Below are positions 19,738 through 37,812 of a DNA stretch of 64,000 bases, piece after piece. Within the stretch, counting starts at the first letter, position 1. Each line of letters starts with the position of its first letter. The notes beneath the pieces were generated by a model. That model was not told the origin of the DNA and did not search any database. It worked only from the letters and a program-made list of their open reading frames with translations. The position numbers and the translations under genes were made by a program. The stretch is taken from positions 7,341,562 to 7,405,561 of the forward strand of contig CM021312.1 of the NCBI GenBank assembly GCA_010645155.1, read 5' to 3'. This DNA is from Tigriopus japonicus (lineage: Eukaryota; Arthropoda; Copepoda; Harpacticoida; Harpacticidae).

Positions 19738-20009
19738 TATGGCAATATGGCACTTTTAAAATGGCAGTGAGTGCTCGAAGTTGACATGTGTTTCAAACAA
19801 CTTTTGGCAGCGTCGGCTTGAAACTACCTGGTAACGTTGTCTTGAAGTGCTTGAGCTCATTTTACCATTAAACAAATTTATGGTAATTCATTTTTGTTCC
19901 AAATTAGGACAACCTTCCATGTCGAAGCCTTATTTTGCGCCTGGTTATATTTTAGTTAATTGTGGAAAGGCTATCTCATCTCTAGCAACAATTTCTTCTG
20001 ACTTTTTAG

Positions 20010-23000
20010 GTGTCAATGTCACGGCCATGCCACACATTGTGTCAATAGTACCGATGATAACATGGTGACGGGCAGTGTTTGCCTATGTCAACACGGAACA
20101 GATGGACCCAATTGCGAAACTTGTCTTCAAGATCATTGGGATGTGCCATGGCGCAGTGCCACCTCTCAAAGTGCAAATGAATGTAAACGTAAGTATATCA
20201 AGTATTCACGTAAATGTTTTGCACGTCATTTTCACCATTCCAAAGAATGTTGGAGAAAGGCAAAACCAAGAGCCAACTTGCGAGTACCAACTTGAGTTGT
20301 GGTCAAGTCAAGTCAAGTCATGGTAATGGTCAGCTGAGCATGTCAAAAAACATGGTACATAAAAAACAGGACCTGGGTCAGTCAAGTCGGGCAACAAGGG
20401 TTCAACCATGGTTGAGGGTAAGAAGAGACACAGGTGAAACTGGAGAGGCTTCAATCTTGAAGCTTGAGTTTCAACACAAGCATTAGAGCTCCTTCATCCT
20501 TCAGCATGAAGATCATATTGTGCTAAAAGATAAATCATGCTCGGTCTTTGGGCTTTAATTTTGTTGTGTGTTAGCCCAAAAGCAAGCTTCCAAGCTTTTC
20601 AAGGTTCCGGAGAATCTTACCTCGAAGCAACGGAGGCGAAAAATGACCAAGGTAGGCGCACCACTTTGCATAATTATGTGGCCACGACGTTTGACACATA
20701 CAAAATCGAAAAGAATGATTTTTGCTTAAAACATCAGAATAATAAAAATAAGCAATTTTTGAACTCAAAGTCACAAACAAATATATTGTCTTAACCTGCT
20801 GAGAAGTGCGAAGCGCATTTGAATACTTGAAGAATTTGTGCATTTTATGACAAGTAGCCATCCTTGCTGATTTAGGTGCAGGAGAAGTGCAACTTAATGT
20901 TCATGATGGCAATCGTAACCGAGCGTTAGTTGGGTCCAAATGCAATGGCACTTTTAAATGATTTACAATTGGAAAAACATGTTTTCCGCGCTTCATTGCC
21001 TTCCGCTCCAATTTTTCAACCTTGAAGACAAACATTCTAGATTTTGATGTTATTATTCAATATTTCACTAGCCTACGTTGGAAATCTTCCGAAAGATTCT
21101 CAAAATATGTTTACTTTGGTATCTAAATTAAATTTTGTTTTGCATTGATTAAGCTTCATGAAAAAGGTAAGCAAACTGGGTCCAAAAGCTATACAAAAAT
21201 AGTTGAAATAGGAAAAATGTTGTTGACGGAATATATGTTCTTATATTAAGGTGTAATTGTGCTCTCAAATTGTGAGAAGATAAATTTTTTTTTGAATTTT
21301 TTTTTGTTGATTGCGATGTTACTTCATCAGTCTGGTTTCTTTTTTGTTGGCAAAAATACAAAAAAATGACACGGGTGGGCATTCTCCCCGCAATAGCTGC
21401 AAATGCCCATGTTTGTGGGACTAGAATGGTACTCCTTGTGGTTGCAGGTTAAATATGTTCCGTGTCAAGTAATTATCTGAGTAGGAGTCTTCCCTGGGTT
21501 GGATCAAGAGGAACTGATCAAGGGACTCGATGAAGGGATTGAGATTTCCACCAGTCTTTTTTTTTCAATAAAAAAAATACCTGGACGTTTGTGATGAGAG
21601 TTAATTAATATTTAGTTTTCAAATTTGGAAAAAATAGTACAAAATTTATATTAAAAATAACGAACCCGTCCACCCTCAAGAGAGGAGTGAAACACTTCGT
21701 GTCAACTCTCCCAATTTGAGACTCCGTGTACGGCCTTTGGTTTACGAGCTTTTATCTCTGTGTTTTTTCTCTCTTTACTAAAAAAGTGTACCGGCACTTA
21801 AGTCAAAATATATACATACAAACATAGCATATTTTCAGCAATTTGAATAGAGTAGTCCAAATTCGCAAAAACGCAAATTAAGGCGAAAATCGCAAAAGGC
21901 ATGAAAAATAATTGATGTTACCAAGATTTTTTTTGACCGTCCCTTGTAATGAGTGACATCTTCGATAATGTCGATAAATTGAGTAAAATGCTCGTTATAC
22001 CTAGAGGGCTAACAGAGAAATGTCACTCCAGTACAGTTAGTGGAGATTTATTTTGAACACACTTCATTAATCCCGCAGCAAGGGTGTCAAGTGACTTGAT
22101 TCATCATACATTGCTCTTGTTTGACCAAAGCAGTTGCATGAGCAATTTTGCCACTCACTCCCTAAAAACGGAAGTTTGGGTTGTGAATCACATTACTAGC
22201 GTGTTCAACATCAAATCCCATCACACACACAATGCAGGCTTAGTGACTCATGAATATTTTCGGAGTGTCATTTTTCTGTTAGTCCTCTAGTCATACCTAG
22301 AGCTCTAGTCATACCTAGTGACCCTAACATGTCTTTTGATTCATTTCTTCATAATTTTCTTCATCTGACGTAATGAAGAGTGATGTAATCGTCCTTTTTT
22401 CTCATAAAAGTAATTTTAACACCTCAAAAACTTCCTCGAAAGTGGAACGTCCTAAAAATATAAATCAGGGGGAAAAAGAGGAGAATTTCCCCTCACCCTT
22501 TCCCCTTCTGCAGTGCCTCGAGATGTTTGAAATAAAAAAGCGCAAGAAAAAGCGCAAGACTTTAAAATCCACAATTGATAGAAAAAAAACATTAAATGAA
22601 ACAACACATTTTTGATCATGCTGTTTTTATGGTATGTTTTTTACATGTAGCGTCTGTTATACTCATTTGAAAACCTGCTTAAAAATAAAGGGACACATAA
22701 CTTATCTTAATGTTTTAGCCTTCCACGCTTTCATACTGAAAGTTTTTGCTATTTTTATAGGTTTTTGCTATTTTTGGAATATTTCAATTGCAATCTGCTA
22801 TCCTCTATTTGACCCTTAAAATCTATCAAATCTGTGAGACTTTCTTGGGTTGATAAAACACTTCCTTGGGTTACTTATTTTTCATTATGGTTTGTTTTGT
22901 CAGACACATAAATGCATTTCACCCTTAAATATTGCAGATTTGTTGTTAGCCCTAATCATTTGCTGTATTTTTTCTTGTTTTTGGCGAAGTATTATTTTTA

Positions 23001-26000: not shown

Positions 26001-29000
26001 GCCAACATTAGTTTGTGAATAGTTAACATGTAGTTATGTACATGAGTACATTCGATCTCTTCCTCAAGAATAGTGATTCACCGAAAGAGCTTTCAGCCGA
26101 AATTTTGGTTTCGGTTATGCTTATCGAAACCTAAGCAGACATGCATTTTGAAGATTGGAGCTTGACAACAAAGTCGAAGATTTTTTGGTCCAAAAATATC
26201 TGAAACTCAATTTTTCGGATTTAAAAAAAATATAATTACCCAACATCGTACACATAATCAATTTAAATTTCAAAGTAAATTTGTATGTAATTTTTTAGTC
26301 ATGAGTTATCAGTTTCGGTTAAGAGCCCTTTCGGTCCATCACTATTAAAGAATGTATCAGCAACTTTTACTCTTTACGCATTGAGATTAACAATAAATGA
26401 AAACATAAGGTGTGAAATACGCATAAATCATTCCACGTACCAAATAATTTTTCGATTCCTCTGAAAGGAGGTCCCTCAACACGTAGCCTTGTTTAACCCA
26501 GAAACTGGCTCAAATTTGGTTCCCACTGTTTGCCTCAATAAACTCTTAATTCCGTTCAAATACTTCAAGAACATGACCCAAGATAGTCTGGAAGTGGTGG
26601 TAAGCCACATGAAAGAAAGAAACCAAATTTATTTTGTTAGCTTGAACACAAGTGTCAAACGTGTGTGTTAACTTTATCAGAAAAAAATCAAAGGCAACGG
26701 TTATGTGTTTTATGCAATTTGATCATAGGTGGCCAAAATGACGCTTTAAGAAAAATTCAGATTTGGATTTTTTTGAATCTTTGGTAGCCTTTTAACTGGT
26801 CTCCAAATTTTTATTGCTGAAGTTACAGTAGAGGCGATGATAACGGTCAGCATGCATCTTGACCCAATACAACCGGTTTTGGGTTGGTTGCGGTTTCTTA
26901 CTACCGCTACAAGGAATGCAATTCCCTGTAAACAATTACAGCAATTACTATTGACGTCATCATGTTTGGCGGGAAAAAAAGTTTGGAAGACCTGTGTTTC
27001 TGATGAGCGTGCGAGGTAACTAAAACGAAGGTTTAGGCCTGGTGATTGAAACAATGCCTTTCTTATCTGCACAAATTGAAGTTGAAATAGCAAATCTTGA
27101 CATTGTTTTTGCAAAAAAGTATGTTTTGTTGCTTTTATCTAAAATTTCGCTACATAAGTTGAGAGGGTTTTTCCGAACTTTGAAATTAGGAATGCCCGAC
27201 TTTGAATAACAAGATGGCCAGAGGAGATCGGTTCCTGGGGCAACTAAACCTAAAAACAAATAATTTGTTTAATTGAAGGCTTCTAATTTCTCCATTTGTT
27301 TGCAAATTACTTGCAATACTTCTCAACATACATTAACCATGCCATTGCCCATAAATGCAACATTTTTCGAAAATCTGACCCTTGAAAACTGAGATTTTTT
27401 TGGCAAGCCTACACTGCTAACGGCAGTTAGAGACGGCAGCAGGTCTGTAAAATGATACGGTAACCACTCCCTATAGAGTCCTTTAAGCGGAACCGGTAAA
27501 ATAGAAAACACCTGCAACCTTTGAGCCTTGCGACACAAAATTTCCGATTTTACGTGTCCAATATTTATTGGGAAGTTCGAAAATGGGTCAAACTTTAGTG
27601 TCAGGATTCAATTTTTGAGGCTGTATTAGTACGGTGACCTCCCAATCTTATGTATTGTGACCTCCCAGTCAGCTGTTCGTTAAACGACCGTTATACGGTC
27701 ATAAATATAAAACAATTAACACTAAAACGAAATTTGGTCGTCCTGCGAATTACTGTTGGCAGAGCTGGACAACCCTTAAATAGTGGGTTGATCAGGAATA
27801 GTATTAAAAAATTCATCTTACCATCGTCGACCTATGTCATGGCGGTTCCAATCTGAAGATGTTTCCATGAATCTGTTAGGAGAAGAGCTTTCGTAATACA
27901 TCTAAGGACGCCGGTTTCCATGTAGGCAAGGGTTTGCTATTTTTCTTAGGAGCTCTTGACATGCAAATGTTAGGGCAATTTTCCACAAAATAAGTTTTTT
28001 CCCAAGTTGGCTCTAACGGGAATTACTATGCAGTGGAAAGTCAATTGTGAATACACCCTGCGGTTGAGTTGATTAACAAACAAACGAACCCCCAGGGAGG
28101 TGCTCCCGTGTAATCTGTTAAATTACATGAAAGTCAACGAGTTTTTTCAAGTAAATGTAATTTTGACGCCGCTTTCCAAGGCTTCATGATGCTTCCGTCT
28201 CGCTTGGTTGAGAGTCAGCTGTCGCAAGCCCAAGTTCCACCTATACCCGGATCCGGGCATCTATTGGCAGAGAAAGTACTATTTTTGGACTCTGGGTGAT
28301 TAGGCGGTTCTAATGCTACCCAAACAAATTATGTCTAAGCTAGTTGAAGGTTTTGAGTAACACCAAACTAAAATACATTTTTGAGGGTTTAAAGGGGAAA
28401 TATTGATTTTTTCTTTGCCAGCACGTGTCGAAGGTTATTACTGTTGATTAATGGATTCTTGTCGAATTTCTAGATTAAAATGGCCTTCGAAATTGACTTA
28501 AAGTTCAACAACAATTCCTTCACTCACGTTTTAGAAACAATACATTTAATTACGAAAAAGCTCACAATTTTTATGATTCTGCAAGTCTGTTAGCTTTTCT
28601 GACCATCAAAGGTTTACCAAATGCAAGGACATCTAGAATACAAAATTCTAGATGTCCGTGCCAAATGTAAGCTTGACCATCTGTGGGATTTAAACAAGCC
28701 AAACTTATGTAAAATAAACTCTAAATCATAAGAAATTGTCATTTTTTAAAAAGGCTACTTTTGAAGAAATGACCCCTTTGAAAGGTAGATGGCGTTAGCG
28801 TAACTTCAATTTAAAAGTTCGTAACCGGTTTGTGACGTTTACTTGAAAAAGCACATTCATTACTAGTGATGAGTAGTAGTGCAGATTTCAGACAAATAAG
28901 ATTTTATGCCCAAAAACATGTTTATTTGCTATTTGATAGCTTTTAAGGTTTATTTGCCATTTTTCATATTATTTGCCATTTTTGGGCAATTAAATGCAAA

Positions 29001-32000
29001 ATTTGTCGGTTTTTGGGCAAATCAATGCCAAAATTGTCTTTATGCGAACAATAGGAAATACAAATTTTTGCCCACAACGTTTTGTTTAAGGGATCTATTG
29101 ATTATTCAACGGAATAAAAATATTTTCCCTCAAATGTTCATATACTTGCACTCCACTTTATTGTTGGTGCAACATAATGCTCATTTTCCAAATTTAGTGG
29201 TCAGTTTTGCTATATTTTGGTAAATTTTTGTGTTTGTTTGCCATTTCTTTATTTGCCTTTTTTTGCCAATTTGGACGCTTTTATTTGCCATTTTTTGGGC
29301 CTAAAAGGCATGTTTTTTTGCTTGAAATCTGCAACCCTAGTGATGAGTAAGTAGAGCAAGAAAAAAGTAGAAAAACAAGGAACAAAGTTTTTAAAAAGCA
29401 GAAAACCGGCTAAAAAGTAAAAAAAAAAATAGTTGGCAAATCTAAGCCAATAAGATTAGAGGTGAAAGAAATTTTAGAGGTCAAGCCTGTAAGTTTTCGC
29501 TATTATCCGTGGAATTGAAGGAAAAAACAGGAAAGGTGCCAAAAAGCGCGTACACCGGACCCCCACAAGTGACAGATTTGCGCGAAAGCGCAAAATATTG
29601 AAGCACTTGTTGCATTATTTTTCAAAAAATGCATTGAGATACAAATGTGGCTGAAAAAGTAAAAAAAAAAAACTTTTTGCTGGAAAAAAGTTAAATCTAT
29701 CAAAAAGGGCAAAAGGGATAAAAAATATTTTCTACTTCTTATTTTTTTTCCTTGCTCTAGTGATGAGCTTCGAGTTGAGATTGTTGCCATTTTTGACTCA
29801 AAGTTTAATTGCTATTAAAAAAGGCAGGTTGTATTGAACTTTTTAACCAAAGATCTAGACCAGAACCACAATGGCAACACCCACTTCTTCAGTAGATTAT
29901 AGTGATGGATCTCGAGGTGGCAGTGCTGTCATATTATACCGAGAGATTAGATCTCTTGCCTTTTGACAAGGCTGCCTAGTTGTGTTGAGCTTTTTGAACC
30001 TTAACAACCAACATGACAAAACTGCGCTAAAAATCATTACCGAAAACGAAATTTCGGCCGTAATTGCGGCCGAATGCGCTTTCTGTCCATCACTAGCCAA
30101 AAAACAGTTATTGGTAAAGAGATATCCCCTATTTTTTTTCTCGTGTTTTTTTTGTCATGTAAATAGATTTTTTCCCTTTTTAAACAGCTTGTGAGTGTAA
30201 TGGTTGGTCCAACCGTTGTCGCTTTAATGAACAATTGTATCAAGAGCGAGGCCGAGGGGGCGAATGCTTAGATTGCGAAGGCAATCGTGATGGACCGAAC
30301 TGCGAAAGATGTAAGCTCAATCACTTCTTTTCGCTTGTTCAAGACGCCTTTGGAAGAACTCCTTGTGAAGCTTGCAATTGTGATCCCACAGGTAGGGCAT
30401 AACAACTTATTAAAGGTCTTTGGTCTACAAAAATCTACATTCCTTACTTCAGGATCTCGGAACTTGCAATGCTCGCCAGAGGGACAATGCGAATGCAAAC
30501 CAGGTGTGACTGGACCAAAGTGTGACCAGTGCGAAGCAAATTATTGGAACTTTGGCTCTTTGGGGTGTCAATCATGCGGATGTTACCCGGATGGAAGTGC
30601 CAATAATAATCCCAATTGCGACACTCTCTCTGGCGATTGCTATTGCAAACAAAATGTCGAGGGTAAAGCCAAGAGGAATCTTTCAACCAAAAGAAATTAT
30701 TTCATGAACATCTTTATCTCATTGCAGGACAAAGATGTGATCGGTGTAAAGCAGGTCATTTTCACATAGACAAGGGCAACGAATTCGGTTGCACACCTTG
30801 TTTCTGTTATGGTCACACATCTGAGTGTGATCTCAGCGGGGGATTTACCCAAAGTAAGCTATTCAACAAGACACCGTCTACATTTCTCTCTAGCACATAT
30901 GTTCTTTAGTGCTAGACGTTTAATAATTCCTTTACAGCCGTTATTAGGAGCGACTTTTCCCGAAGTAGTGAGGATTGGACTTCAAAGGAGGACCAACAAG
31001 ATTTGCCTTTGAACTACGATGGCATCAATAAGTACATCGGAGTTCAATCTAGTGGATATGCTTCAGGACCAGCTTATTTTCTAGCCCCTCGTATGTTGAC
31101 TTTTTGTTTAAAATATTGATAAAGAAATCATTGCTAATGGAAATATCGCATTTAGCTGGTTATCTGGGAGATCAACGCGCCAGTTACAACCAGGATCTCA
31201 AATTCAAGCTTCGGATCAATGACGTTGGGCCAAGACCTAGCATCGAGGATGTAATTATTGAAGGCGGTGGAGCCAAAACAACCAGGATCACTTTATCCAT
31301 CACTGACCAAAGTAACCCAATGCCAAGCTACGAGGTCTGTATTGTCTTCTCTTCGCTTAATTCGTGTCATCAAATATGCTCTTCGTGGCTTCTTATTTTC
31401 ATAAAGAACAGCAGAATATTTTGCTACGTCTTAAACTAAATCATCTATCTAAAAGTAAAAGGTTGGATTAGCTTGAGAGTCTTGGTGTATCCTTTCTTGA
31501 GTTTGTTGAACTATTGCTCCCCAGGGTTGTCCCAATTTAGACGCTAACACAAAACCAGGGATTTTCCTGAACACCAAGACCAAAATGTTAAAATTGGTAA
31601 CACCAAGCCATTTCCCGTTATGCAAATTTCGGGAGAGTTGAGGAACCCACCGGGGTGGTCGATTATACGATGCATTTTTGGCATCTGATTTAGCTCAATC
31701 TTGTTCACTTTTTACCTCAAGAATTTGAAATGAGAAATCGACAGAAACTCATGAGACAAATGAAAAGCCAGATTTTTTGAGAGCTCTAAATACATTAGAT
31801 TTCTCAACAAGATCTTCAACTTCAGGTCACAGTTTCACCAATCGTTGTTTTTGTTGGACAGCGCCTAGAAGCACTTTTATTGTCAAACACACTTGAATCT
31901 CCAATTGGATGAACCAAAAGAATAATTTTCTTTGCAGATGCAAGATTACACATATAGGCTTCATGAAAACCCAGAATTTGGGTGGAATCCGCGTCTTAGT

Positions 32001-35000
32001 TCGAAGGACTTTATGGCCATTCTGGCAAATATCACAGGGATTATGGTTCGCGGAACATATGTGAACCAAGGAGTGGGTTTCTTGGACGAAATTCGACTTG
32101 GTTCAGCCCAACGAGGAGGATCCGGTCCCCCAGCCACTTGGATTGAACGATGCAATTGTCCAGAAGGCTATCAAGGTCAATTTTGTCAGCTTTGCCAACA
32201 AGGATACCATCATAACAGCGGAGGACCTTTCGCAAGATGCATTCCTTGCAGCTGCAATGGACATGCTGATATTTGTGACGCAGAAACAGGTAAGACAGAC
32301 ACACCTTAGCCAGTTTTATGCTTTAGTAAATAGAAAAATGACATTAGGCAGACCTGCATTATCTACGATAAGCTACAGTTTCGACAAAAACTGACTGTTG
32401 GGGTGCAGATTTCAGGCAAATAAAGTTTTATGCCCAAAAATATGTTTATTTGCCATTTGCTAGCTTTCAAAGTTTATTTGTCATTTTTGATTTTATTTGC
32501 CGTTTTTGGGCCAGTATATACAAATTTGTGGGTTTTTGGGCAATTAAATGCAAAATTTGCCGGTTTTTGGGCAAATCAATGCCAAAATTGTCTTTATGCG
32601 AAAAATAGGAAATACAAATTTTTGCCCACAACGTTTTGTTTAAAGGATTTATTGATAATTAAATGGAATTAAAATATTTTCTTTTAAATGTTCACACTCG
32701 TGCATTCCACTTTATTGTTGGGGAAACATAATGCTCATTTTCCGAATTCAGTTTTGCTATATTTTGGTAAATTTATGTATCTATTTGCCATTTTATTTGC
32801 CATTTCTAGTTTTATATGCGATTTTATTTGCCATTTCTAGTTTTATATGCGATTTTATTTGCCATTTTGGACGCGTTTGTTTGCCATTTTTGGGCCTTAA
32901 AGGCATGTTTTATTTGCCAGAAATCTGCACCCATAGTTATTGGTAAACGTTTTAGGACTATTTTGAAATATCAAAAATGTTGTATGAACTAGAACATGAA
33001 CCACGTTTACGTTGGTAAAATGTTCTGTAAGAAGTGGGTGAGTACCACTTTTTCCTATCCTTGATGTCTTAACGGGCATTTTTCAGAGCAAACTGGATCA
33101 CATTAGTGTTTACAAATTGGATTTTTTTCTATGGAACACTATCGCTCTCGAAACACAAAGCGAATATAGTCCGATAAAATGCTAAAATATTTGATTTTTC
33201 TATTCAATCATAGGTGAATGTGCTTGTCGAGATAATACCTCTGGCCACAATTGCGAGCGTTGCAAGAAAGGGTATTATGGCAATGCTTTGGCAGGAAACC
33301 CGGGTGATTGTCAGCCATGTCCTTGCCCTGACGGAGGGGCTTGCATGGAAATATATGGCAATCCTGAGAGTCCAATTTGTATTGAATGTCCCATCGGTCG
33401 AAGAGGTGAGAAAACTAAAATAAATTCCATCTGGCAATCTGAATAATGGAAGCAATTTCTTTTTGGTATTTTGAATAGGTCCACGATGTGAATTGTGTGA
33501 AGATGGCTACTTTGGTGATCCAATGGGTCGTCTCGGAACACTACGTCCGTGCCAGAAATGTGATTGCAACAATAATGTTGATTCTAATGCCATTGGAAAC
33601 TGTAACAGTACTACGGGAGAGTGCTTACGGTGCATCGATAATACGGATGGATTCAATTGCGAGCGCTGCAAGTCGGGGTTCTTTGGAGACGCATTGGCTT
33701 TGAAAAAGCCGGGTGATCCTCCGAGTTGTCAACCATGTCAGTGCTATCCAGTGGGTACAAATCATAACGATGAAACGTTCCTTCCCATTTGCAATGGCTT
33801 CACGGGCGATTGCAGTTGCAAACCTCACGTAGTGGGACGCGATTGCGACAAATGTGCTGATGGTTATTTTAACTTGGATAGTGGAATGGTAAGTGACTTA
33901 AAGTAATACCCGACCACAGCTTGTAACCCGTGAAGAATCTGCTTAAAGCAAATTGACACATTTCTGTTTTCGTTTTATGCAAAAGGGATGCGAGGCATGC
34001 AATTGTGATGCAATTGGCTCTTTCAACGCTTCTTGCCATGTGCAAACCGGACAGTGTAAGTTTCTTATTCAACTCCTTTACTTAAACCAGGCATGGATGT
34101 GAGTAGAACTTTTTATTTTTGAACAGGCCACTGCAGAGAGGGTGTTACTGGACCACGTTGTGATATGTGTCTTCCGTATCATTTTGGATTTTCCCAAGAT
34201 GGATGCAAACCTTGTGATTGCGATCCAACAGGCTCCACCGATTTGCAATGCGACCTCATCACAGGACAATGTCCTTGCCGAGACAAGGTGCATCGAGGCT
34301 CATTGAAGATTTGGTGTAAATATACGTCATATGGATCTTCATGGAAAATTTTAGGTTGAAGGAAGACAATGCGACCGATGTATGGAGAATACTCGGACCA
34401 AAGATACCGGGGGCTATGGGGAAAAGATTTGTGAGCCTTGCGATGATTGCTACAATTTGATTGAAGATGCCACTAATGAACATCGAAGGAACTTGGCGGC
34501 CTTGGACAACTTGTTGCAACAAATAGCAGAAAACCCTGAGCCAGTCGGTGGAGATTTTGAGTACCAGTTAAGACAGCTTCAAGTCACCGTGAAATCTACT
34601 TTGGCTGATGCAAGAATCAATTCCCAAAATGAGGAAGGAGGAACTTTACGAGACAGATTGGAAAACCTGAGGGTCAAACTTGAAAAAGTTATAAACTTGA
34701 TTATGGAGGCCGATCAACAGGTCCAAAGTGCCAAAAATCAAGGATCTGAAGCTCAAAGAGATATGATGATGGCCAAAGACATTGTCGAAAGAGCTCGAGA
34801 AGGTCTGAAGCTAGCGCAACGCCAACTTGACATCCAAGGACGAGAAGCTTTGCGTCGGGCTCAAGAGCGATCGAAGAAGTTTGGAGAGGAGAGCGAAAAA
34901 ATGACTGCAATTGCTCGAGAAGCGAGAACATTGGCCGATGGGTAAGCAATACAATACAACCTTGATTGTTCGAAATCAAAGATTTACACATGCTTTTAGG

Positions 35001-37466
35001 CAAGTTGAAGACGCCAATGAAATATCCAGCATAGCCAAGCAAGCCTACGACAAATCTACGGAAGCATATGACTTGGCCAGGGATGCTTTAGAACAGCAGC
35101 ATCAAACTGCCAACCAAATCACAGTTTTGGAAGTTCAGATTGGAGATATGGGAGAGAAACTGAGAACAGTTCAAAGTCTAGCTTCTCAAACTCTCCGTGA
35201 TTCAACCGAAGCATACAACGAAGCCCTCAATATTTACCAGCAAGCCAATTCATTGGAGATTCCCGAAGTCGACAATGCTCAGCTTGATGATAAAACTGTT
35301 AAGGTGTCCAAGGAATCCAAGAGAATCCAAGATGATGCTACCAGGCTACTTTACGAGAACGGTCAACTACTTACTGAAGCTCAAGACAGGCGTGTTCAGT
35401 TGGAGGATCTCTTACGAAGAGCAGAAGCTCAGCAACAGCAAATTGATGAGCAATTGGCCAATATTGATAGTCACAGGGCGCGGGCGCTGGATTCGGTGAG
35501 AACGGGGAATAATGTTTTGAAGGATGCTCAAAACACTCTCAAGACTTTAAAAGGTAAAGGCACATCTTAAAACCAAACTGGTTAGTATTCGTTGATGTTA
35601 ATTGCTGGTATTCTCGACTTGTATTCAGATTTTGAGAGCAAAGTGAGCGAAAATGAAGAAACAGCCAGAGTAGCTATGGAAAACATCAACGCCATTGAGA
35701 CCATGATCAGAGAAGCCGAAGAGAAAACAGCCAAAGCCCAGAGTGATATGGTCGGTGCCGATATTTCTGCTAAATTAGCTCTGAATGTAGCCACAGATGC
35801 TCAAACGATTGCGGCAGAAGCTTCGTCAAGGGCGGCAAATATCAGTTCCCAATCAGGAATAACTTTGGAGCAAGCTAATGGATTGGCAGATTCTGCAAGA
35901 TCTTTAGCTAGCAAGTTGGCGGAAACCAAAGAAGTTGTGGAAAGCAAGGAGGAGATCGCTGCCGAGGACGAGCAAGCTGCTATTTTGGTAATCACCGAAA
36001 AGAACAATCTCATTAAAACTTGATCGTAGCCTCTAAAGGACAACAACGCTTTTTTAGGCTCTCTCCAAAGCTAACGAAGCTCAGCAAAAGGCTGCTCGGG
36101 CCAATCAAAAACTTGCCCAAGCCAAGAAGGAACTCGAGGAAATTGCGGCAATTCTTTCACGAGTCGTGGAACCGGGTAAACATAACCAAGAAGCACGGAA
36201 ATCATGGAGTGGGAGGCTAGCAATGAGAATTATGTTTTCCAGCAGAAACGAACCATTTGCGTTCTTCTGCAAGTGAGACCTGACTTGCATTGAGAATAAC
36301 ACGTATTTCAAATTTCAGCCCAATCGAATGTCCGAGTGAAAAGTTATGCCTTCTCAAACTTATGTAGTGAAGAGAGCAAAGAATGAATGAACTCGCCCTT
36401 TTGTGGTAAAACGATTACCACAAAAGGGCGAGTTCATTCATTCTCGGTAGGATTTGCACTGAACTTTGAGTGAGCATAACTTTTGTCTCCGACGTTCGAT
36501 TGAGCATAACTTTTGTCTCCGACGTTCGATTGAGCATAACTTTTGTCTCCGACGTTCGATTGAGCATAACTTTTGTCTCCGACGTTCGATTGAGCATAAC
36601 TTTTGTCTCCGACGTTCGATTGAGCTGAAAATTGAAATACGTATTCTTGTGAACATATGCAAGGTCTCATTTGCAGAAGAACGTAATTGAATTGTTCTTC
36701 CTGGAAACCATTTTTCTCATTGCTAGCCTCCCACTCCATGATTCCAGTGCTTCTTGACATAACCTACATGATTTTATGCTCAACTAAAGGAGATACAATA
36801 ACCTTATCGATTTTCTGCAGAACCAGGATTGCTGGAAGATCTCGCTCGTAGAGTCGAAGAAGCCGAAAAACAATTTCAAGCCGAAGACCTCGATCAAAGA
36901 TTAAAAGATTTGGTAGCCGCCAAACAGAGACAGGTACAAGAAATTGGGCTCGTGCATAAACAAGGGAATGAACCTCGATCATATTTGACCATTGGTTAAA
37001 TTACCCCGTTAAATTTGGCTTTAATCTAGGTCACGCTTCTCAGATATTATGGTCGAGAAGTTGAGCGCCTCAAATCAGAGATGAGCAGCATTGGAGAAAT
37101 CCGGGAAAAGCTCCCAGATACATGTTGGAATCGTATACGTTTGGAGCCTTAGGTAGTCGTGGGTCCAAGGCAAAATAGAGTTTTATCTTTATCCTTAGTT
37201 AAGACGTGTTAGTCTTGGTGACGGGTCACTGACAATTTTAGTTATTCTGGTGATGGTTTTTAGGTTCTATCATCTTTTTTTAAATCCTTTTTCTTGATTA
37301 CTTGGATGATAACCCTTAACTTCATTTTCAGACGGCCTCAGTTCGAGACTTGGAACGAGAGCTCAACTACTTGCGCGGGGAATCAGAAAACATTCAAGCC
37401 ATCCGGGATTCATTACCAGATTTTTGTCCCAAATCCAACGAACTGTGTTTGGAAGACCAATGCTAA
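20010..37466 (+). CDS. LanB2: Laminin gamma chain (LAMC1/LanB2 type), 5' end not found
   Basis: Basement-membrane subunit that assembles with alpha and beta chains. Exons: 20010-20188, 30188-30391, 30453-30662, 30728-30853, 30938-31090, 31156-31334, 31938-32289, 33214-33405, 33479-33888, 33986-34055, 34127-34287, 34355-34941, 35000-35553, 35629-35987, 36058-36175, 36821-36933, then 37030-37152 or 37332-37466. Every junction is GT-AG and in phase. Order: laminin EGF repeats ([21 protein letters not shown]), laminin IV domain (LPLNYDGIN to [16 protein letters not shown]), a second EGF run ([17 protein letters not shown]), the paired cysteines [10 protein letters not shown], and a long heptad coiled coil for trimerisation. 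About 1360 residues are visible. That matches LAMC1 minus its LN domain, which I could not find between 14 and 20 kb. Intron 1 is 10 kb and holds Sema2a. Confidence 0.95.
20537..20651 (+). CDS. Candidate signal-peptide exon in laminin intron 1
   Basis: ATG at 20537 opens [17 protein letters not shown], a textbook signal peptide, followed by [20 protein letters not shown] and a GTAGGC donor after phase 1. Two phase-compatible acceptors exist. One is the laminin exon at 30188, which would give a gamma chain starting at the second EGF repeat without LN domain. The other is a TTTAG at about 20876, which would give a secreted peptide of about 66 residues ending at a TGA near 20960. It may also be a chance open frame. 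Expression data are needed to choose. Confidence 0.4.
22002..22289. mobile_element. hAT-like MITE in laminin intron 1
   Basis: The inverted ends are TAGAGGGCTAACAG and TAGAGGACTAACAG, followed by AAATGTCACTCC-like sequence. The flanking 8-mers GTTATACC (21994-22001) and GTCATACC (22290-22297) differ at one base. The element is 288 bp with no coding capacity. Confidence 0.85.
22290..22315. repeat. Probable hAT excision footprint
   Basis: The sequence reads GTCATACC, then the 10-base palindrome TAGAGCTCTA, then GTCATACC again. The palindrome is exactly the first five bases of a TAGAG terminus joined to the last five of its partner. It looks like an insertion reduced to its very ends inside its own target duplication, directly abutting the intact element at 22002-22289. 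Confidence 0.7.
22717..22960 (+). repeat. Dispersed repeat, copy 1 (copy 2 at 59543-59780)
   Basis: The block with GCCTTCCA, CATACTGA, TTTTTGCTATTTTT, ACTTTCTTGGGTTGA and CTTCCTTGGGTT recurs in the same order at 59543-59780. The two copies have clearly diverged. Neither shows ends or coding capacity. This copy is about 700 bases upstream of the Sema2a start. Confidence 0.7.
23653..25749 (+). CDS. Sema2a: Semaphorin-2A-type secreted guidance protein, intronless
   Basis: Secreted axon-guidance ligand of the invertebrate class-2 semaphorins; plexin B is the receptor in flies. The 698-residue single open frame begins with a signal peptide ([12 protein letters not shown]), then a complete Sema domain, roughly residues 28-490 ([87 protein letters not shown]). 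The PSI module is around residues 493-530 ([13 protein letters not shown]). A single Ig domain lies at about 545-632 ([11 protein letters not shown] to DNGEYQCHY). The end [22 protein letters not shown] matches fly Sema2a. There is no transmembrane segment. Length is close to fly Sema2a. The absence of any intron is unusual for a semaphorin and suggests a retrocopy or intron loss. The gene lies inside intron 1 of the laminin gamma gene, same strand. Confidence 0.97.
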   Translation: MATKLILALGLGMTLATPIEQPYLQELACGQYYYRTLYIDEKNDALFVGGMDRVYKLNAANITQSDCDKDMVYIPSSSTVNCVSKGKSADFDCKNHIRVIQPIADGSRLYVCGTNAHQPKDHVLYSNLTHLARHEFYPGVGDGIAKCPFDPEDNSTALWVEDGNPGGHPAVYSGTNAEFTKADSVIFRGDIFDISTGRREYTFKRTIKYDSHMLDKPDFVGSYEIGEHVFFFFRETSVEFLNCGKTVYSRVARVCKNDVGGKNILNQNWATYLKARLNCSLSGEVPFFFNEIQDIYKSPEDDSIFHAVFATGSNGLSGSAICSFTLDDLQKTFDEGKFKEQATTTSIWLPVPSTRVPSPRPGTCVDDTRNLSDTVLNFIRKHPLMDTIAPHDQKEPVFYTSDAIFTKIVVDSVNAGSYGKDRPFHVYYAGTLDGRVFKISRWTNEAGDYETRLLDVFEVTTPHRVEAMALSRKVKAIYVTSDHNIKQLSVELCASRYASCVQCVRDPYCGWDRESGLCRPKHFSLLQDPAGEAPGICDMSNPKQKVSANFGGSVHMECALNLPSSKDNVESIAWYHLDSRGHRTKINFKLSREKFIMTQTFGLVVLGVNERDNGEYQCHYNSEIVSHYEVSVDAHRCSAPNKTADYQKVYSEWCSEFQKYKSALKTWEKRQNNKCLPKEAFLKSQNSVYRTASTNPFV
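26071..26344. mobile_element. hAT-like MITE with TAGTGATG ends
   Basis: The inverted ends are TAGTGATTCACCGAAAG and TAGTGATGGACCGAAAG. The flanking 8-mers CTCAAGAA and TTAAAGAA agree at six of eight positions, so the duplication is only weakly supported. The element has internal CCGAAA/TTTCGG repeats and no coding capacity. It resembles the ends at 29900-30095. Confidence 0.65.
26902..26932 (-). repeat. 3' tail of a LINE/SINE insertion
   Basis: On the minus strand this reads TTTACAGGGAATTGCATTCC followed by TTGTAGCGGTAG, the same tail found on the SINE at 53706-53886 and the LINE at 58160-59416. No LINE coding sequence is recognisable immediately upstream, so it is a very short 5'-truncated copy. 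Confidence 0.65.
27460..27690. repeat. Dispersed repeat with CTGGGAGGTCA / GGGTCAAAC blocks
   Basis: Two blocks occur here: one with GAGTCCTTTAAG, GCGACACAAAAT, CGTGTCCAATATT and GGGTCAAAC, and one with GACCTCCCA and GACCTCCCAGTCAGCTGTT. The same blocks reappear at 48010-48430 (with relative inversion) and part of them at 56930-57020. This is a dispersed family without visible coding capacity; its type is unknown. Confidence 0.6.
27733..27830 (-). mobile_element. LINE 3' fragment
   Basis: The minus strand encodes a degraded [17 protein letters not shown] segment. It is the same as the C-terminus of the reverse-transcriptase frame at 58253-59416 ([20 protein letters not shown]), with an in-frame stop. 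A dead fragment of the same LINE family. Confidence 0.75.
28874..29339. mobile_element. hAT-like MITE, GCAGATTTCA-ended, copy 1
   Basis: The inverted ends are TAGTAGTGCAGATTTCA and TAGGGTTGCAGATTTCA. They are flanked by GTGATGAG on both sides (28866-28873 and 29340-29347), a perfect 8-bp target duplication. The interior is built from TTTGCCATTTTT-like repeats with GGGCAAAT and GGGCAATTAAATGC motifs. There is no transposase. A second copy lies at 32402-32935. Confidence 0.88.
29352..29759. mobile_element. hAT-like MITE adjoining the previous one
   Basis: The inverted ends are TAGAGCAAGAAAAAAG and TAGAGCAAGGAAAAAA. The right side carries GTGATGAG (29760-29767). On the left the same octamer lies at 29340-29347, separated from the end by TAAG. 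The interior contains TTTGCGCGAAAGCGCAA, also present near 23062-23080. No coding capacity. Confidence 0.75.
29900..30095. mobile_element. Possible TAGTGATGGA-ended MITE
   Basis: Short inverted ends TAGTGATGGATC and TAGTGATGGACAG enclose 196 bases with GGCCG and CCGAAA repeats similar to the element at 26071-26344. No matching target duplication was found, so the limits are uncertain. It ends about 90 bases before the laminin exon at 30188. Confidence 0.45.
32402..32935. mobile_element. GCAGATTTC-ended hAT-like MITE, copy 2
   Basis: The inverted ends GGGTGCAGATTTCAGGCAAA and GGGTGCAGATTTCTGGCAAA match the ends at 28874-29339, and the internal GGGCAATTAAATGC and TTTGCCATTTTT repeats are the same. 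The flanking octamers do not match well. It sits in the laminin intron 32290-33213, so the same family has inserted twice in one gene. Confidence 0.8.
36187..36756. mobile_element. MITE with 7-bp TSD, family X copy 2
   Basis: Inverted ends CAAGAAGCACGG and CAAGAAGCACTG are flanked on both sides by ACATAAC (36180-36186 and 36757-36763). The arms share ATCATGGAGTGGGAGGCTAG. The centre contains an inverted pair around TTTTGTGGTAAAACGATTAC that brings two GAATGAATGAACTCGCCC blocks together as a hairpin. Compared with copy 1 (11752-12206), this copy has a block expanded to five tandem units. It lies inside the laminin intron 36176-36820. Confidence 0.88.
36471..36620. repeat. Five perfect 30-bp tandem repeats inside a MITE
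   Basis: The 30-base unit, starting TGAGCATAACTTTTGTCTCC and ending GACGTTCGAT, is repeated exactly five times with no mismatch. Copy 1 of the same MITE has one unit. Open frames over this block in several phases are repeat artefacts. Confidence 0.95.
37030..37152 (+). CDS. LanB2: Laminin gamma last exon, version A
   Basis: It begins after AATCTAG in phase 0, directly continuing the exon ending at 36933. It encodes 40 residues: [15 protein letters not shown], then [11 protein letters not shown] and WNRIRLEP, then TAG. The IRxxLPxxC block is the conserved gamma C-terminus, whose Cys pairs with the beta chain in known laminins. A Glu two residues from the end is comparable to the near-terminal Glu that vertebrate gamma1 needs for integrin binding. 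Confidence 0.9.
   Translation, partial: VTLLRYYGREVERLKSEMSSIGEIREKLPDTCWNRIRLEP
37332..37466 (+). CDS. LanB2: Laminin gamma last exon, version B (alternative)
   Basis: A second exon follows 180 bases downstream of version A, after a strong TTCATTTTCAG acceptor and also in phase 0. It encodes 44 residues: [16 protein letters not shown], then [10 protein letters not shown], then [12 protein letters not shown] and TAA. It keeps the R--RE--L and IRxxLPDxC framework of version A but has two extra cysteines and a different end. The exon has no internal stop, which argues for function. It can be reached only if version A is skipped, because A contains a stop. Confidence 0.8.
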   Translation, partial: TASVRDLERELNYLRGESENIQAIRDSLPDFCPKSNELCLEDQC

Positions 37467-37812
37467 AATTGATGCTGTTTTCAAGTCCCGCACCAATGTT
37501 TGCGATCTATTTGTAGAACTCTCCCAAGTTGAATTTGTGTACAAGAGAAAGAGTAAACAAGCTAGGAATTTACTTCAATGGAAATATCATTTTATCTCGA
37601 CGCATTGTATTCAAAGTGGGTCACCATGATTTTTGTGGCAAAATAAGCATTTTTGAGGAAATCTACGAACAAGATTTATCAGTAAAGACACATTAACTCG
37701 TACCACTTGTGCCTTGGCTTTACTTAGTGTTCATAATCTTTGTTGTTGTTGTTGTTGTACTGCAGATGGTTGTAGTCATCAGAATGTCCAGTGAGTTGCA
37801 TCGATGCATTTG

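Follow-up and report, generated by a model that had tools for sequence, protein, structure and literature searches.

A window of 64,000 nucleotides from the genome of the copepod Tigriopus japonicus (GenBank assembly GCA_010645155.1, contig CM021312.1, positions 7,341,562 to 7,405,561 of the forward strand; all window positions below are counted from its first letter) carries the laminin gamma gene LanB2, which ends in two tandem last exons, here called A and B. Either can follow the same penultimate coding exon, and each encodes the final four or so heptads of the gamma coil plus the tail that lies beyond it. To judge by sequence comparison, the two tails are old and conserved, and other copepods appear to use both; tail A is, by the comparisons below, the ancestral arthropod form, and the second tail, B, has so far been found only in copepods among the sequences compared. 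With slightly more confidence than doubt, we read the two as an alternative terminal exon pair, kept in several copepod lineages, that would retune the integrin-binding tip of the chain together with the last four heptads of its coil.

The two last exons of LanB2

The gene lies on the forward strand, and a splice model built by hand joins 15 exons (30188-36933) into one open frame that continues into either tail, for 1,302 residues with tail A and 1,306 with tail B. Its exons are each 89.9-100% identical to P0001, a protein named by NCBI 'laminin subunit gamma-1-like isoform X3' of Tigriopus californicus, and along its length the model resembles P0001 and its kin, with the order expected of a laminin gamma chain, in which the coil comes after LE repeats and an L4 (Laminin_B) domain; Pfam, which was applied to the relatives and not to the window model, finds Laminin_B and EGF_laminin in P0001. 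The Leu-Pro-x-x-Cys that closes the coil, and a Glu in the tail beyond, are present in both A and B. The features concerned are as follows (a slash marks the exon boundary).

30188..36175, forward strand: fourteen upstream LanB2 exons (LE, L4, coil), from the splice model and exon-by-exon likeness to P0001
36821..36933, forward strand: shared penultimate coding exon; donor CAG/gtacaa, ends in phase 0, takes one base from the preceding exon
36934..37029, forward strand: 96-nucleotide intron preceding exon A
37030..37152, forward strand: alternative last exon A; acceptor tctag/GTCACG, 40 residues, stop TAG, one Cys
37153..37331, forward strand: stretch between the exon A stop and exon B
37332..37466, forward strand: alternative last exon B; acceptor ttcag/ACGGCC, 44 residues, stop TAA, three Cys

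The coordinates, phase 0 entry, splice signals and separate stops of the two exons had been proposed in an earlier, sequence-only reading of this DNA, and all were found as described when the sequence was re-read, as was the difference in Cys complement (one in tail A, three in tail B). The exons are neighbours, are homologous, are entered in the same phase and carry their own stops, as homologous alternative terminal exons do. The stretch 37153..37331 has no AATAAA or ATTAAA and one AATAGA at 37174; the weak poly(A) variants noted are this AATAGA and the AGTAAA at 37552 and 37681, and weak donor-like sites downstream would place the last exon base at 37152, 37217 or 37249, by an approximate scoring matrix. 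Exon A may therefore have its own polyadenylation or be a stop-bearing cassette, both being compatible with these signals.

Descent of both exons from one by duplication, likewise proposed earlier, is borne out by two comparisons. Aligned with each other, the tails reach a Smith-Waterman score of 56, against a mean of 19.6 for shuffled sequences, none of 20,000 of which attained 56; and a profile built from 18 gamma tails of arthropods taken not to be copepods (16 from named species, plus P0079 and P0120) matches, among the 2,135 open reading frames of the window, exons A (expectation value, E, 1e-9) and B (E 3.7e-8) only, the next match standing at E 3.8. When B-type tails other than those of the window and T. 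californicus are made into a profile, it picks out exon B at E 2e-16 and exon A at E 1.1e-7. The shared exon plus tail also matches the gamma1 chain of solved laminin fragments, at E 4.9e-6 and 1.1e-4 for the two tails, part of that score stemming from the shared exon rather than from the tails. Between A and B, 20 of the 32 positions from coil to Cys differ. DNA identity over the first 96 nucleotides is low (43/96), so the duplication was not recent.

Both tails in other copepods

The comparison set held 203 proteins from three protein searches, one of which supplied the best 120 of 1,465 matches, and with the two window forms came to 205 sequences. Tail B matches the end of T. californicus isoform X3 at 43 of 44 residues. 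Of the 205, 76 could be divided at the exon junction for matching by coil (one match, P0174/P0176, was left out because it runs into intron), and five pairs outside the window emerged in which an identical or near-identical coil (62-174 residues, 94.6-100% identity) leads into two tails that diverge at the same junction.

P0004/P0121: 117/117 residues shared
P0123/P0124: 113/113 residues shared; P0028 against P0123, 129/131
P0007/P0145: 172/174; A-like tail incomplete
P0136/P0164: 60/62
P0005/P0149: 70/74

P0123 and P0124, which lie on nucleotide contigs of 948 and 962 bases, form the sole pair with such support on both sides. Long forms such as P0004, P0005 and P0007 (contigs of 4.5-6.1 kilobases) are open across the window's intron positions, like spliced RNA. 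In fragments that read into an intron, judged by eye, the exon nearest the shared exon is an A exon behind 84 nucleotides in P0146 and an N-type exon of calanoid kind (defined below) behind 57 in P0178. Copepod tails with a species name are those of T. californicus (B) and Lepeophtheirus salmonis (A; P0012, P0039), and P0025 can be assigned to Neocalanus flemingeri through accession GFUD, which is given in a passage of PMC6105596. Every named non-copepod arthropod gamma chain with a usable tail, among the 120 best of the 1,465 matches, is A-type; those matches were clustered above 90% identity, which could conceal a second tail in groups other than copepods.

It is hardly credible that the duplication left behind a functionless exon, B or A, whose splicing is noise. 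Such a possibility has its opening in that the window's species is known here from its genome; against it stand the near-identity of tail B in T. californicus, the open frame and the [Leu/Ile/Met]-Glu kept across many copepod sequences, and the recovery of both forms in five pairs. The sequence-only reading had held that its proposal would fall if the downstream exon were absent or decayed in close relatives; it is neither, as T. californicus X3 and the five pairs attest, and a chance match or decayed exon is ruled out by these together with the profile E-values.

We also consider it very improbable that the other species owe their two tails to separate gamma genes and not to splicing. The five pairs are known from sequence rows, not from genome copies, and in the shared part two pairs differ by two residues and one by four, as gene copies might; but the shared 117 and 113 residues of two other pairs are identical and change comes right at the junction, and in the window both exons sit in one gene whose preceding exon has a single genome match. 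Two gamma gene copies in the window's own genome (194,852,151 bases in 158 contigs) were considered and are unsupported, given that single match. The shared exon, exon A and exon B each match this 195 Mb genome once, in searches that score the best candidates only and in which exons A and B missed each other, so that diverged copies could escape.

Sorting the 205 sequences by tail gave 82 A-type, 38 complete B-type and 9 incomplete B-type rows, near-identical rows included, and 76 that offered no usable tail, being other laminin chains or fragments that are truncated or read into an intron; the 38 complete B-type rows comprise 31 distinct tails beyond the Cys, and a tail Glu was counted if it lay at least 7 residues past it. 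In A-type tails the residue past the Cys is Trp, Phe or Tyr (77/82; His in 4, Lys in 1), the spacing from Cys to Glu is 7 in all but one row, where it is 8, and none has an extra Cys. Vertebrate gamma1, whose tail reads CFNTPSIE (part of it aligned here; numbering as in passages of PMC5343747), shares the spacing of 7. B-type tails have Pro past the Cys in 37 of 38 and keep [Leu/Ile/Met]-Glu in every complete row, at spacings of 9 (29 rows), 13 (6), 10 (2) and 8 (1); in the window the spacings are 7 for A and 9 for B. Extra Cys in complete B-type tails come as a pair (16 rows) or not at all (22), and never singly, which suggests that a small disulphide loop may form around the Glu and makes more likely the 'differently disulphide-bonded' laminin that had been raised as one outcome of the exon choice.

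As to descent, a tree of 67 rows, built on 38 columns, places the podoplean-like B tails together with two calanoid-like tail types, S (CPS..EHCLEC) and N (CPN....LEN and kin), on one side of a branch with support 98/99; on the 31 coil columns the same branch has 85/92, which is not decisive. 'Calanoid' and 'podoplean', where a row lacks a species, go by likeness to named rows, and in the alignment a two-residue insert in P0171 was collapsed by hand and longer inserts ahead of the Cys were trimmed to two residues. Grouping copepod A tails with calanoid N tails was rejected (p 0.008), and grouping them with calanoid S tails was not (p 0.295). Either B would predate the split of these lineages and have doubled again in calanoids, or the calanoid S tail would be a much altered A.

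The integrin-binding tip and the coil

According to passages of PMC5343747 and PMC8241838, the gamma Cys of vertebrate laminins is bonded to the beta chain close to where the coil ends, the strand that follows this Cys rests on LG1-LG2, and the metal ion of the integrin beta subunit is coordinated by the Glu of the gamma tail. Mouse embryos in which this Glu is changed to Gln die soon after implantation (a passage of PMC6238537), and gamma3 lacks the Glu and its laminins do not bind integrins (a passage of PMC11260871). For Tigriopus, the predicted helix reaches residue 132 of 145 and ends just ahead of the Leu-Pro, and AlphaFold gives the single chain helices and a loose tail, with a mean pLDDT (predicted local distance difference test) of 49 for the last block.

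By the mechanism that we propose, splicing from 36933 to 37030 would yield the ancestral arthropod tail and splicing from 36933 to 37332 the copepod tail B, so that the choice would exchange the final four or so gamma heptads and all that follows the Cys by which the chain is expected to bond to beta; this includes the strand that in vertebrates supplies the Glu for the integrin metal ion. Since the Glu is kept in both, tails A and B are probably both receptor-competent. Tail B has a reach longer by two residues, and the Cys residues that flank its Leu-Glu in Tigriopus and some of the others may close a small loop; from this longer reach and Cys pair we argue for an altered fit, by which the switch would retune which integrin binds, or how tightly, rather than abolish binding. 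A fuller version, of an old copepod switch that offers the Glu on an ordinary linear tail or on a longer one, drawn in part of the lineages into a disulphide ring (CLEDQC, CLEC), and that would thereby give one animal laminins of two receptor specificities or affinities from a single gamma gene, is more tentative, and we lean somewhat against it.

The sequence-only reading had instead seen a switch between laminins competent and not competent for integrins, A-laminins binding them and B-laminins not, like vertebrate gamma3. Such an on/off switch is improbable. It has a vertebrate precedent through separate genes, in that a passage of PMC11260871 describes gamma3 laminins without the Glu as integrin-blind, and the Glu of Tigriopus tail B, fourth from the end, does lie two residues further past the Cys. 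Taken literally, it holds that tail B has no Glu at the same distance from its end as tail A, where it is second from the end, but the C-terminus is the wrong point to measure from, since in A-type tails 1 to 14 residues follow the Glu, 11-14 of them in most listed Lepidoptera, whose tails are otherwise ordinary. The loss of the C-terminal Glu that marks a gamma3-type, integrin-blind chain is seen in none of the 38 complete B-type tails, all of which keep [Leu/Ile/Met]-Glu, and the proposed loss of competence thus finds no support.

The main rival to retuning of the tip is partner choice through the coil, by which the final 28 or so coil residues are what matters, the two exons prefer different alpha chains or beta states, and changes at the tip are secondary. 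We think this unlikely, though the most serious of the alternatives. With the predicted end of the helix lying immediately ahead of the Leu-Pro, exon choice also swaps about 28 predicted helix residues along with the tail, with the 20 differences in 32 positions given above; some 50 residues of this coil region are enough for a stable coil, as a passage of PMC5343747 has it, and the genome has, besides the LanB1 locus, two loci that may encode alpha chains, all three known here as match positions only:

C9:4045613-4051905, reverse strand: LanB1 (laminin beta) locus
C8:1033449-1042741, forward strand: laminin-like locus, candidate alpha chain
C1:5121501-5132579, reverse strand: laminin-like locus, candidate alpha chain

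The latter two are further loci matched by laminin LE sequence. A matching change in the tail of the beta chain was also considered, but no LanB1 last exon matching the C-terminus of the query was found in the stretch examined, the far part of which is mostly N. Against partner choice, the coil part keeps its hydrophobic framework and length, and the strongest and most regular differences between A and B lie past the Cys.

Several points weigh against the retuning of the integrin-binding tip by a conserved exon pair. For Tigriopus, use of tail A is read from the genome, and the X3 form of T. californicus is a model taken from a database. In four of the five pairs one member (P0121, P0145, P0149, P0164) comes from a source labelled 'merc', which we take to be a catalogue assembled at the protein level, so that chimaeras are possible. 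The pattern of paired Cys could reflect as few as two changes, the rows being related, and on the coil columns alone a grouping in which the calanoid S tails stay beside the A tails does at least as well, its log-likelihood being better by 1.46 (p 0.527).

The wider locus and known systems

Upstream, the LE1 exon of LanB2 lies at 20008-20187. A tblastn search with two relatives found no LN-domain exon in the window, positions 1-20007 included; Pfam finds an LN domain in the relatives P0003 and P0007, and the LN exons of LanB2 may lie upstream of the window, behind a long intron. Between LE1 and the exon at 30188, the stretch 20537-20644 (forward strand) is likely an alternative first exon of LanB2: its translation matches the start of T. 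californicus X3 (E 3.7e-11, 64% over 36 residues), and it would likely yield a gamma chain without an LN domain. Similar LN-less starts occur in the X2 forms of Lycorma, Nomia and Zophobas and in P0006, P0019, P0030, P0041 and P0053, several of these LN-less gamma starts having the motif WDG.[TL]PWF.

The introns also hold repeats. An element resembling a miniature inverted-repeat transposable element occupies 36187-36756, in the intron preceding the shared exon at 36821-36933; its inverted arms (36187-36349 and 36594-36756) are 82% complementary and enclose an array of a 30-nucleotide unit near 36465-36630. The first arm had 1,976 first-look candidates in the genome, and 40 of the 41 matches listed (itself included) are at 95-100% identity; with so many near-identical copies, the family is large and young. 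Two stretches that resemble each other, 28900-29340 and 32400-32940, contain many TTTGCCATTTTTGGGC-like words and look, by eye, like a dispersed repeat.

Alternative last exons in general, and laminin gamma tips specific to a gene, are already known. The nearest likeness is that of vertebrate gamma1 and gamma2 to gamma3, reportedly set against each other by Ido et al. in 2007 and 2008 (going by titles and review passages): there too laminins differ in the gamma C-terminal tail around the integrin-binding Glu, but by separate genes and with the Glu missing from gamma3, whereas copepod LanB2 is one gene with two last exons and the Glu in both. Human LAMC2 has transcripts with an alternative 3' end, and is thus alike in having such an end in a laminin gamma gene, but that end is truncated and is not known to carry a second homologous tail. 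Laminin alpha3 (alpha3A/3B, LaNt alpha31) resembles the copepod case in drawing laminin diversity from alternative transcripts of one gene, and differs in concerning an alpha chain and short arm, not the integrin tail of gamma. Arthropod genes with mutually exclusive homologous exons, muscle myosin heavy chain among them (PMC2257972), likewise have tandem homologous exons of which one is used at a time; their alternatives are mainly internal, whereas those of LanB2 are terminal and belong to a protein of the extracellular matrix. A search of an open-access library, outside which most subscription papers lie, turned up no description of a laminin gamma gene with homologous alternative last exons, copepods included.

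Invertebrates have few laminin genes, and vertebrates vary integrin recognition by means of different gamma genes. A splice-controlled change, in one gene, at the very residues gripped by the integrin would, if the proposed retuning holds, be another route to the same end. Tigriopus is kept in the laboratory, and RNA data for it are public. The copepod tails form a natural series of variants, with Cys-to-Glu spacings of 7, 8, 9, 10 and 13 and with or without the Cys pair, that bears on how much variation integrins tolerate.

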